A program made the position numbers and the translations under genes. Positions 45,413 to 49,793 of a stretch of DNA of 64,000 bases are shown in pieces; position 1 is the stretch's first letter; every line of letters begins with the position of its first letter. Source of the DNA: Acidimicrobiaceae bacterium (GTDB taxonomy: Bacteria > Actinomycetota > Acidimicrobiia > Acidimicrobiales > RAAP-2); the NCBI GenBank assembly GCA_027314705.1, contig DAHVAJ010000061.1:34843-98842 (forward strand), given 5' to 3'. The notes below the pieces were generated by a model. The model was not told where the DNA came from. It searched no databases and was given only the letters and a program-made list of their open reading frames with translations.

Positions 45413-46069
45413 TCAGGCACCTCCCTTCGCCGCCGGGGCCTTCACCGCGTCACGGAGCACGACCACGCCGCCACGGGGGCCGGGGACGGCGCCCTTCACC
45501 AGTACCAGCTCGCGCTCGGGGTCGGCCTGGACGATCTCGAGATTGAGCGTCGTCACCTGCTGACCGCCCATCCGGCCGGCCATGCGGGTGCCCTTGAACA
45601 CGCGGGAAGGAGTGGCGCAGGCGCCGATCGACCCCGGTGCCCGGTGGTGCTTGTGGTTGCCGTGGCTGGCGCCCTGGCCCTTGAAGTTGTGGCGCTTCAT
45701 GCCCCCGGCGAAGCCCTTGCCCTTGGAGACGGCCGTGGCATCCACCAGCTCGCCGGGCCGGAGGAGGTCGGCGGTCAGCTGCTGACCGACCTCGTACCCA
45801 GAGGCGTCGTCGATGCGGAGCTCGACCAGCCGGCGACCCGGGTCGACGCCGGCCTTGCCGTAGTGGCCCTGCTCGGGCTTGGTCAGCGTGGTGGCCCGCC
45901 GGTGGCCCCAGGTCACCTGCAGCGCCGAATAGCCCTCGTGCTCAGGAGTCTTCACCTGGACCACCCGGACCGGCGAGACGCGCAGCACCGTCACCGGGAT
46001 CGCCCGGTGCTGCTCATCCCAGATCTGGGTCATGCCGACCTTTTCGCCCACGATCGCCTTGGTGGCCAC
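45413..46069 (-). CDS. rplC: 50S ribosomal protein L3
   Basis: VATKAIVGEKVGMTQIWDEQHRAIPVTVLRVSP; GGMKRHNFKGQGASHGNHKHHRAPGSIGA. Confidence 0.98.
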   Translation of the reverse strand: MATKAIVGEKVGMTQIWDEQHRAIPVTVLRVSPVRVVQVKTPEHEGYSALQVTWGHRRATTLTKPEQGHYGKAGVDPGRRLVELRIDDASGYEVGQQLTADLLRPGELVDATAVSKGKGFAGGMKRHNFKGQGASHGNHKHHRAPGSIGACATPSRVFKGTRMAGRMGGQQVTTLNLEIVQADPERELVLVKGAVPGPRGGVVVLRDAVKAPAAKGGA

Positions 46070-46271
46070 TGGAGCTCTCCGTCTCGACTCTTCGTTCTCG
46101 CCCGACGCCGGCCGGCGTCGATCCGCTGTTGCAGTCCTGCTCGTTCCGCCGGGTCCCGGCCCGACGGCGGTCGCCCCGGGGCACCGCCGCCCACCGGGCG
46201 CCGTCCGTGATCGCCCCGGGCCGGACCGTCCGGCACGGGCGCCCACCGGCACCCGCCGGCTCGCACGCAGA

Positions 46272-46301
46272 CGCTCCGCTCGGAGTCCTCCGAGCGGAGC
46301 G
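46272..46301 (-). promoter_or_regulatory. Strong hairpin in rplC upstream leader
   Basis: CGCTCCGCTCGGAG-TC-CTCCGAGCGGAGCG, 14-bp perfect inverted repeat about 200 nt upstream of rplC start; no T-tract. Confidence 0.6.
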
Positions 46302-46462
46302 CTCGCCTGGTTCGGCCCGAGGTCCCCACCGCCTGCGGCGGGCGCTCGAACACGTCGTCTCGTCCTTCCGGCCCGGAAGTGGGCCGACTGGTCACACTAC
46401 ACCATCCCGCTCCGCCCGGCGAGGGCGACCCCGACCCGGTGGCGGGGTGGGCCCGCGGGACC

Positions 46463-46520
46463 GGTCAGACCGTCTGGATGGTGATTCAAGAAGTGCCGAG
46501 TCTGCACGCCCGGTCTGACC
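46463..46520. repeat. 10-bp perfect inverted repeat with 38-bp spacer
   Basis: GGTCAGACCG (46463-46472) and CGGTCTGACC (46511-46520). Confidence 0.8.
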
Positions 46521-46903: not shown

Positions 46904-46950
46904 GGTGTCCATTGGTGTCCACCGCTGGCCGTTGGTGACCGTGCGTCACC
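46904..46950. repeat. Phased GGTGTCC/GGTGACC repeats and hairpin upstream of Rep-like ORF
   Basis: GGTGTCC at 46904 and 46914, GGTGACC at 46934 (10/20-bp spacing), GGTGAC-CGTGC-GTCACC inverted repeat 46934-46950. Confidence 0.6.
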
Positions 46951-47016
46951 GTTGGGACCCGTTGTCGCAGCTCAAACGGCCATTCGCGCGTCACATCCGA
47001 CCGTGAAGGTCGGACC

Positions 47017-47805
47017 ATGGACATCGACCCGGGATCACGCGATGACCAGAGCGGCCGCCGCCACGTGGGCGTGGCCACGCCGGGCGGCATGAAGCTCACG
47101 TCCCACTGGCAAGGGAAGTGGCCGCCCGACGGTGGGCGGGTCGGGCGCCCGACCGGGCGGTCCACCAGTCCGGTCACGACGGTCACCCCCAAGGCGAGGC
47201 CACGGATGCGCTGGACAGGGAACGCCCTGCCGTGGGACGAGTTGGACCGTCTCACCCTACTGACCCTGACCTACCCGGCCGACTGGCACAGGTGGTGCCC
47301 CGACGGAACGACCTTCAAGAGGCATCTTCGGGCGTTCCGGGAGCGCTGGTGTCGCCGATGGGGGGTGCCCCCGGGCGCACGGGTGCTCGAGTTCCAACCG
47401 AGGGCGCTCCGGCCAGCCCAGGAGAGGTTCGCCTCCCACTCCCACCTCTACGTCGATCTCCCCGAGGACCCCGAGCTCTGCCACGACGGGAACACAGGCG
47501 GTGAGGTCTGGGACTGGGCCCGCCAGGCCTGGTGGGAGATCGTGACGTCCGACGGCAGCGACCACCGATCCCGCAGCGTCCACGCCCGCCCCTGCTTCGA
47601 CGGCACCTACGAGAGCCGCTCGACCACGACCAAGCGGGTGGGCGACGGCTTCTGGCGTGAGTCGGACGAGCTCAGCCAGAAGGCCGCCCCGGACGGGTTC
47701 GAAGGCGTCATGCGACGGGGCGTCTGGGGCATGGCCCCCGTCGAGGGCCTCCAGGAGGTCGACGAGGACGAGTTCGTGAAGGTGCGTCGGATGCTCCGAC
47801 GGTAG
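47017..47805 (+). CDS. HUH-endonuclease / rolling-circle Rep-like protein, probably catalytically degenerate
   Basis: LLTLTYPADWHRWCPDGTTFKRHLRAFRERWCRRWG (motif I-like), SHSHLYVDLPED (HxH), WDWARQAWWEIV, SQKAAPDGFEGVMRRGVWGM; high GC3. Confidence 0.6.
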   Translation: MDIDPGSRDDQSGRRHVGVATPGGMKLTSHWQGKWPPDGGRVGRPTGRSTSPVTTVTPKARPRMRWTGNALPWDELDRLTLLTLTYPADWHRWCPDGTTFKRHLRAFRERWCRRWGVPPGARVLEFQPRALRPAQERFASHSHLYVDLPEDPELCHDGNTGGEVWDWARQAWWEIVTSDGSDHRSRSVHARPCFDGTYESRSTTTKRVGDGFWRESDELSQKAAPDGFEGVMRRGVWGMAPVEGLQEVDEDEFVKVRRMLRR

Positions 47806-47823
47806 CGGGACGAGGTGGCCGGC

Positions 47824-47970
47824 GTGAAGGTCAGGATCCGGGATCAGAACGGGCGGCTCGTGTCCCACCGGCGGGAGCTGTCTCTCGACGGGATGACGGT
47901 CACCAACCTGACCGACGGTCTCCTGTTCTCTGAGAAGCTCCTCAGGTGGGTCCAGGTCGACGCCGCACGG
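47824..47970 (+). pseudogene. Possible truncated small ORF after Rep-like gene
   Basis: VKVRIRDQNGRLVSHRRELSLDGMTVTNLTDGLLFSEKLLRW with high GC3, then frame runs antisense into methyltransferase gene. Confidence 0.35.
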
Positions 47971-47982
47971 ACACCTCGCAGT

Positions 47983-48786
47983 TCAGCCGGGCGCCTGCGC
48001 CGCGACGAAAAGGTGGCTCGCGGCGGCCAGGGCCGAGGGTTCGGATTCCATGAGCCTCGCGGCGGCCAAGATCGCCTCCCTCCGCTGCGGATCGGCCCAC
48101 CTGCTCTCGAAGTCGCTCACCAGGAACCCCGGACCCTCCACGCTGAAGATCCTCGGGTTCTGGAATCCCGCGTCGGCCACCTCGTCCACCAGGTCCTGGG
48201 GAAGGTGAAAATAGGCCGTGGTGAACATGGGTGCGTCCTCCAACACACCGGTGGCGACAGCGTCCTCCACAGCGCGCAACACCTCGGGTTCGTGCAGCCG
48301 ATCCAGACGGACGAGGAGGTCCATCACGGCGGCAAACCTGGCTATCCCCGCCGCGAACACCCACCCGCCGGATCGGAGGATGCGCAGCGCCTCATGCAAC
48401 GCCTGGCCACGGCCGTCCCGATCGACGAGGTGGTACAGCGGACCCATCAACAGGACGACATCGAAACTGTCCGAGGGCTGGTCGAGGGCCCGAGCATCAC
48501 CCACCGTCGCACGGACGCCAGGGTGATCGGCCGTGGCCTGCTCGACATGGAGAGGAACCGGATCCACCAGCTGCACGCTGTGGCCTAGTCCGGCCAGCCA
48601 CCCGGCGTAGATTCCAGCGGCACCGCCTATGTCGGCGATCCGCAGGGGACCGGGAGGCAGGAACCTCAGGATCAACTCCTGCGTGCGAGCGAACTCGAGC
48701 GGACCAGAAGGGACGTCTCCCCGGAGGCGCCCCGCTTCGCGTCCCTGTCCGTAGAACGCCAGGATTCTCGGATCCAATTCTGGCAT
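47983..48786 (-). CDS. Class I SAM-dependent methyltransferase
   Basis: LRIADIGGAAGIYAGWLAGLGHSVQLVDPVPLHVEQA, FDVVLLMGPLYHLVDRDGRGQALHEALRILRSGGWVFAA. Confidence 0.85.
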   Translation of the reverse strand: MPELDPRILAFYGQGREAGRLRGDVPSGPLEFARTQELILRFLPPGPLRIADIGGAAGIYAGWLAGLGHSVQLVDPVPLHVEQATADHPGVRATVGDARALDQPSDSFDVVLLMGPLYHLVDRDGRGQALHEALRILRSGGWVFAAGIARFAAVMDLLVRLDRLHEPEVLRAVEDAVATGVLEDAPMFTTAYFHLPQDLVDEVADAGFQNPRIFSVEGPGFLVSDFESRWADPQRREAILAAARLMESEPSALAAASHLFVAAQAPG

Positions 48787-48904
48787 TCCCGAACCTCTCA
48801 CGAGACAGCGAACTGCCGCACCCACGAGCTGGAATCGATCAGATCGGCAGAGCCGGGAGTACGACGTACAGGATCCCCCGATGGCACGTCGACGCCGGAG
48901 ATGC

Positions 48905-49219
48905 TCAACCGGCTCGACGCCGCTCCATCTTCGTTACGCCGTCGAGGATTCGCTTGCGCTGTCGGAGCAGTGTCCATGCCATCACTCCGGAGGCCAGCAC
49001 CCACAGGACTGAAGTCCAGCGAAACGCACCGTGTCCGAACACGGCAGAACACAGCCAAAGCAAAGAGACGGCAGCAAAGACGAGCGCCAACGGCCCGGAC
49101 CAGCGAATCTGGGCCAGAACCCGGCGAACCGTGTCGTAGTCCTCACTTGGGACGAGCTCGCCCTTGTAAAGAGCTACCCTGATCCGCTGACGCTCACGCC
49201 GGTCCGCCGTCCCCGCCAC
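48905..49219 (-). CDS. Small two-TM hypothetical protein (start uncertain; ORF extends to 49294)
   Basis: GPLALVFAAVSLLWLCSAVFG and TSVLWVLASGVMAWTLL segments, basic C-terminus. Confidence 0.55.
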   Translation of the reverse strand: MAGTADRRERQRIRVALYKGELVPSEDYDTVRRVLAQIRWSGPLALVFAAVSLLWLCSAVFGHGAFRWTSVLWVLASGVMAWTLLRQRKRILDGVTKMERRRAG

Positions 49220-49318
49220 AGTGACATGGTATCGCTCCGCCGCCGTCGAGGCCCTTACCCCCGACCACGTGGCAGTCGCCCGTTGGCGCTCCAATCAGCG
49301 CTGGCTGCTAGAAGCCCG

Positions 49319-49420
49319 TCAGTCGAGCGCACCGGCGGTCCGGAAGAGGTCGCCCAGCTCGGCCAGGCACCGGTGGCAGGTCTCGGGGTTGGGGTACCGC
49401 TCGGAGAACTCCGAGATCAG
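49319..49420 (-). pseudogene. C-terminal gene fragment
   Basis: [33 protein letters not shown] with nearly all third positions G/C; no ATG/GTG/TTG start between it and rpsJ stop. Confidence 0.5.
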
Positions 49421-49463
49421 ACCACACGGAGTGGCGGCCGGCTGAGGGCCACCACCTTGCGTG

Positions 49464-49793
49464 TCACACGGTCTGGATCTTGATCTCGATGTCCACGCCG
49501 GCCGGGAGGTCGAGCCGCTGGAGCGAGTCGACCGTCTTCGGCGTGTGCTCGACGATGTCCACCAGGCGCTTGTGGACCCGCATCTCGAAGTGCTCCCGGC
49601 TGTCCTTGTACTTGTGGGGCGACCGGATGACCGTGTAGCGGTGCTTCTCGGTCGGCAGGGGCACCGGTCCCAGCACCTTGGCCTGGGTGCGCAGCACGGT
49701 CTGCACGATCTTCTCGGTCGACTGGTCGAGGATCTCGTGGTCGTACGCCTTCAGGCGGATGCGGATCTTCTGGCGGGGGCCGTCAGCGGCCAT
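49464..49793 (-). CDS. rpsJ: 30S ribosomal protein S10
   Basis: [42 protein letters not shown]. Confidence 0.99.

Follow-up and report, generated by a model that had tools for sequence, protein, structure and literature searches.

Judged from sequence comparison, the 262-residue Rep-like protein encoded between rpsJ and rplC in this Acidimicrobiaceae contig was very probably the initiator of a small integrative element, composed of a tyrosine integrase, an HUH Rep and cargo, that inserted at the 3' end of rpsJ, and the present copy would be an immobile relic of that element. The window (the whole stretch of 64,000 nucleotides that was analysed) carries the S10 ribosomal operon on its minus strand, and the Rep open reading frame (ORF) lies inside an insertion of ~3.0 kb that separates rpsJ from rplC (Table 1).

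Table 1. Features of the rpsJ-rplC interval, with positions counted from the first letter of the window.
Feature	Position	Strand	Basis or remark
rplC (ribosomal protein L3), next operon gene beyond the insertion	45413..46069	-	
attR-like repeat, displaced rpsJ 3' end	46464..46485	-	ATCCAGACGGTCTGA
Rep-like HUH protein, 262 aa	47017..47805	+	motif 1 LTLTYP, HUH H141-S142-H143, Gly211 at the place of the motif-3 Tyr
HUH pair H141-S142-H143	47437..47445	+	P-H-U-H-L in homologues, S-H-S-H-L in the window
Codon GGC (Gly211) in place of the motif-3 catalytic Tyr	47647..47649	+	alignment to homologues
Putative rest of the Rep C-terminus, same frame past the TAG at 47803	47806..47961	+	codon-position GC 0.69/0.37/0.92
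Gene for a SAM-dependent methyltransferase, either cargo or a later addition	47983..48825	-	
Small ORF (orf129), probably a two-helix membrane protein	48905..49294	-	
Remnant of a tyrosine integrase N-terminus, ~34 residues, then stop; no catalytic domain	49328..49429	-	similarity to rpsJ-adjacent integrases
attL-like repeat, rpsJ 3' end with stop codon	49463..49484	-	ATCAAGATCCAGACCGTGTGA
rpsJ (ribosomal protein S10), 3' end is the integration target	49464..49793	-	

The gap between rpsJ and rplC measures ~3.4 kb in the window, compared with 0.30-0.41 kb in all 12 of the congeners in which it was readable. In an alignment, the spacer of the congeners corresponds to the part of the window spacer next to rplC, which places the additional ~3.0 kb beside rpsJ. 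Two copies of the rpsJ 3' end stand 2999 bp apart. The core of the attR-like copy (ATCCAGACGGTCTGA) equals the rpsJ end of two congeners (L027 and L028) at 15/15 bases and is the only 15/15 match on either strand of the 64 kb; the attL and attR cores of the window match each other at 13 of 15 bases. A repeated gene end that flanks an insertion in this way is the sequence pattern that site-specific integration into the 3' end of a gene leaves. The target is rpsJ, and no tRNA genes were found in the window.

The insertion lies upstream of a conserved intergenic sequence before rplC, which may explain why it was tolerated. Ahead of rplC (46259-46324, minus strand) the window and 12/12 congeners (L027-L038) have a conserved hairpin-like sequence, CCAGGCGAGCGCTCCGCTCGG...CCGAGCGGAGCGTCTGCGTGC, behind a GGTATAGAGT-like stretch that is conserved as well; together these are perhaps a promoter and a ribosomal-protein leader, and an Rfam search of the leader gave no match. 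As a separate observation, a second rpsJ fragment, divergent (77% across residues 3-58) and accompanied by its own str-operon genes, lies close to the end of a contig in one congener (L071, G002:C112), possibly through contamination of that draft genome.

Directly behind rpsJ, and on the same strand, the insertion holds what is left of an integrase, and the Rep ORF is convergent to it. Although only ~34 N-terminal residues survive, this stub came out at E=1.9e-6 when the whole window was searched in all six frames, with the next best match at E=4.9, and it scored 26.0 bits against 4.5 bits for the best of 5000 shuffles. The insertion has two more genes, for the methyltransferase and orf129, and none of the sibling elements examined carries a counterpart of either. 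No near relative of the methyltransferase was found at the rpsJ-rplC site of other genomes, and its PADLOC match to mad2 probably reflects the generic methyltransferase domain. For orf129 there is one relative, 44% identical, which lies elsewhere in the genome of a congener. Just upstream of the Rep ORF, at 46908-46962, words resembling GTTGGTG(T/A)CC are repeated; they are possible old origin or operator repeats, and the old origin probably lay within the ~530 bp that precede the ORF.

Integrase and Rep genes, or their remains, also lie beside rpsJ in six further genomes from two families (G057, G064, G493, G938, G951 and G933), so that, with the window genome included, the arrangement is present in seven genomes. 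A family-wide Rep search yielded G057 and G064, and an integrase search of the family of G493 yielded G933, G938 and G951; within the window's own family the Rep occurs in 3 of 173 genomes (the window genome, G057 and G064). In G057 and G064, rpsJ is followed by the integrase (Phage_integrase, E=2.5e-13) and then by a convergent Rep. Tandem copies or several sites occur in G057, G493, G938, G951 and G933, and the copies, of about 2-5 kb each, are often separated by attachment sites; G057, for example, has one such site at rpsJ, one internal and one near rplC. The right-end sites of the siblings have the form CGTGCAACTAC.G ... GGATCAAGAT(A/C)CAG in common. Across the order, a looser form of this att and arm motif occurred in one genome (G493) of the 139, against 0 for the reversed control, and no copy of the att motif was found in viral contigs.

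The siblings have the rpsJ target in common with the window copy, as well as the place and orientation of an integrase behind rpsJ on its strand, of which the window retains the N-terminal stub, and a convergent Rep; att and arm motifs are shared among them. Ahead of the right att of the window, the best counterpart of the arm motif CGTGCAACTAC.G matches at just 9/14 positions (at 46509), a score tied with two other places, and the motif pattern has no match in the whole source genome. They differ from it in their longer integrases, some of which are complete, in Reps that retain the Tyr wherever the segment survives, and in toxin-antitoxin-like cargo instead of a methyltransferase. This cargo comprises a GNAT acetyltransferase, DUF4258 with a following small ORF, DUF4160, PadR and HTH_17 (L100 = G938:C165, L070 and L049). 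Some sibling copies are broken as well: stops or frameshifts occur in G951:C63, G951:C42 and G064, and the second G938 copy is without the Tyr segment. One locus, L104 (G951:C63), is a divergent integrase-Rep pair that does not lie beside rpsJ on its contig and has no att motif; of all subtypes its motif 3 is the closest to that of the window Rep.

The Rep ORF itself runs from an ATG at 47017 to a TAG at 47803-47805 and contains the motifs LTLTYP, PDGTTFKRHLRAF, EFQ and HSH. Its GC contents at the three codon positions (0.67/0.56/0.90) are similar to those of the adjacent ribosomal genes and hence coding-like, and it is present as a single copy in the source genome. The preliminary description had recognized a Rep-like HUH protein and had proposed a profile search as a check. 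That search bears the assignment out: the curated Pfam family REP_ORF2-G2P aligned to residues 81-175 below threshold (E=0.0028, 18.4 bits, cut-off 27.8), and a profile built from 13 homologues, with the window protein left out, recovered the ORF at E=1e-30 when all six frames of the window were scanned, the runner-up having E=1. In addition, tblastn matched it to Reps in six small-plasmid records from Streptomyces, Rhodococcus and Couchioplanes, and five of these regions were read. On the strength of the Pfam alignment, the plasmid matches and the profile result, we regard the family assignment as firm: by sequence the protein is unambiguously a homologue of the plasmid-type HUH Reps of actinobacteria. 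The nearest Reps are only ~31-33% identical to it, and we found neither an intact element closely related to this one nor a close relative of its Rep. No family could be assigned to the Rep with confidence from Pfam, NCBIfam, PHROGs or PADLOC, and no match was obtained against phage records or PDB sequences. Low-scoring tblastn matches in G063, G015, G049 and G055 were not used; where read (G015 and G049), they looked spurious.

In motif 2 the window protein retains both histidines, with a Ser between them, and a second Ser replaces the invariant Pro that precedes the first. A further change is in motif 3. This segment reads AVYFxKHG in plasmid Reps and AAYMAGE in the fuller integrated elements, and its Tyr is present in every homologue that retains the segment. 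When motif 3 of the closest subtype, L104 (RVAQYLAREAGKFAQK), is aligned to the window protein (RVGDGFWRESDELSQK) the alignment is free of gaps and places Gly211 opposite the Tyr. The loss of the catalytic tyrosine, which had been suspected from the sequence of the ORF, is thereby confirmed. Just behind this place the window Rep carries a further substitution, K218E. Over the whole protein 22 of 32 family-invariant columns are kept and 10 are changed, the Pro of P-H-U-H among them. In the same test most single homologues keep 88-100% of the columns, but the Reps of integrated elements keep 55-59%, for which reason the count of kept columns alone cannot separate decay from divergence.

An AlphaFold model of the window Rep, built with six sequences, was weak (mean pLDDT 48.7). 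Its core, residues 80-178, is arranged as strand-helix-strand-strand-helix, and nothing is predicted with confidence for residues 181-248. The best Foldseek matches of this weak model in the PDB include the HUH nucleases AAV Rep and the TnpA proteins of IS608 and ISDra2, none of them significant. In the model of a homologue, likewise weak, a helix at residues 325-333 bears the usual Tyr331.

Beyond the TAG the frame continues through a stretch with suggestive homology to the Rep C-terminus. Taken alone this fragment did not score above shuffles, and we therefore do not claim that the Rep gene was broken by a nonsense codon.

From the families to which these proteins belong we infer that, in an intact element, the integrase would recombine the att of the element with the last ~15 bp of rpsJ, thereby rebuilding the rpsJ coding sequence, and that after excision an intact Rep would nick the origin through its Tyr and start rolling-circle replication. 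The window copy would be unable to excise by itself, because its integrase has been cut down to an N-terminal stub, and its Rep should not nick the origin or start rolling-circle replication, because the motif-3 Tyr is lost. In a rough neutral simulation started from the present Rep sequence the frame was still open in ~25% of the runs at 0.1 substitutions per site and in 5% at 0.2. This suggests either that decay of the Rep is recent or that some constraint, or a non-cutting role, persisted for a time. The preliminary description had offered two fates for the protein, an inactivated relic or repurposing for DNA binding. The relic is the better supported of the two, since the ORF proves to lie in the centre of an integrative element in decay, with an integrase stub, att repeats and siblings that decay likewise at rpsJ; the second branch persists through a frame that is open and coding-like.

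That second branch would have the Tyr-less Rep retained as a non-cutting DNA-binding protein that attaches to the old origin of the element or to incoming relatives and prevents these from replicating or integrating, or that regulates local genes. The open frame with a GC content of 0.90 at third positions speaks for such a role, as do the differences from the nearest subtype (L104), which are in frame, and the preserved HxH, LTLTYP and EFQ blocks; the tandem stacking of siblings at the rpsJ site could moreover make exclusion useful. It sits poorly with an integrase that is already a stub, with the changes at 10/32 invariant positions (including the Pro of P-H-U-H) and at K218E, and with a model that has no confident structure across residues 181-248, and no relative was found that combines the same Tyr loss with an intact frame. 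We consider it unlikely. A broader proposal, in which an undescribed minimal Int+Rep family has its dedicated att site at the rpsJ 3' end and accretes there in tandem, and in which the window copy has kept its Tyr-less Rep to bind origins without cutting and to interfere with incoming relatives, appears quite improbable when taken as a whole.

The preserved HxH pair would also fit an HUH enzyme that is still active with a different nucleophile, and a candidate exists in the Tyr of GTYESRS, which precedes the motif-3 place by ~14 residues and which the preliminary description had named as the alternative that would overturn its reading. This Tyr falls on a non-conserved column, occupied by Y, W, F or other residues in the homologues (VDY/LDW/VSF), and not on motif 3; the residues surrounding this Tyr have no confident structure in the model, and the homologue model has the usual Tyr in its helix. 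An active enzyme of this kind is therefore very improbable. As little credit is due to a chance rearrangement or assembly artefact in place of an integrated element: the genome is a draft of 131 contigs and the repeat ends match at just 13/15 core bases, but in six further genomes the same gene family occurs at this position, together with common att and arm motifs, the integrase stub is in the right place and on the right strand, and the contig runs on beyond the insertion in both directions, by ~80 kb and ~14 kb.

As a probable relic of an rpsJ-specific element, the window copy can be compared with known systems. The Reps of small actinobacterial plasmids (pTSC1, pDYM4.3k, pREC02, pCAZ1 and p7; REP_ORF2-G2P) have the same order of LTLTYP, EFQ, HUH and W..IV as the window Rep, and that of pTSC1, which scores above the Pfam cut-off, touches RepSA of pSAM2 as well. 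These plasmids are free and their Reps keep the Tyr in AVYFxKHG, whereas the window Rep is chromosomal and without it. An annotated FtsK-type transfer gene is present on four of the five (pTSC1, pDYM4.3k, pREC02 and p7) and not on pCAZ1. AICEs, the actinomycete integrative and conjugative elements of the pSAM2 type, have an integrase, a rolling-circle Rep and an FtsK-type Tra, and those with a tyrosine recombinase integrate mostly at tRNA genes (PMC3218068). The rpsJ elements are likewise integrated and combine an integrase with a Rep of the rolling-circle type, but they use the rpsJ 3' end as their site and span about 2-5 kb per copy; no FtsK/SpoIIIE-type Tra was found among the ORFs of the window insertion or noticed in the ORF lists of the siblings, part of which were scanned with Pfam. 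Streptococcal ICEs with a tyrosine integrase use the 3' ends of rplL, rpsI and rpmG, and their direct repeats, 12-54 bp long, may include the precise end of the gene (PMC4701971). The use of a tyrosine integrase, the 3' end of a ribosomal protein gene and direct repeats is common to both groups, but the ICEs belong to another phylum and have other modules, and no conjugation module was seen in the rpsJ elements. That paper makes no mention of rpsJ, and a limited search of open-licence papers found none on rpsJ as an integration site.

A dead Rep alone is a common kind of relic, and it is the location that makes this one useful. The S10 operon, among the most conserved operons of bacteria, would serve repeatedly as a landing site for small elements that pile up in tandem and carry only an integrase, a Rep of the rolling-circle type and toxin-antitoxin-like cargo. 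With its intact and broken copies, the group offers a series in which the loss of integrase and Rep function may be followed.
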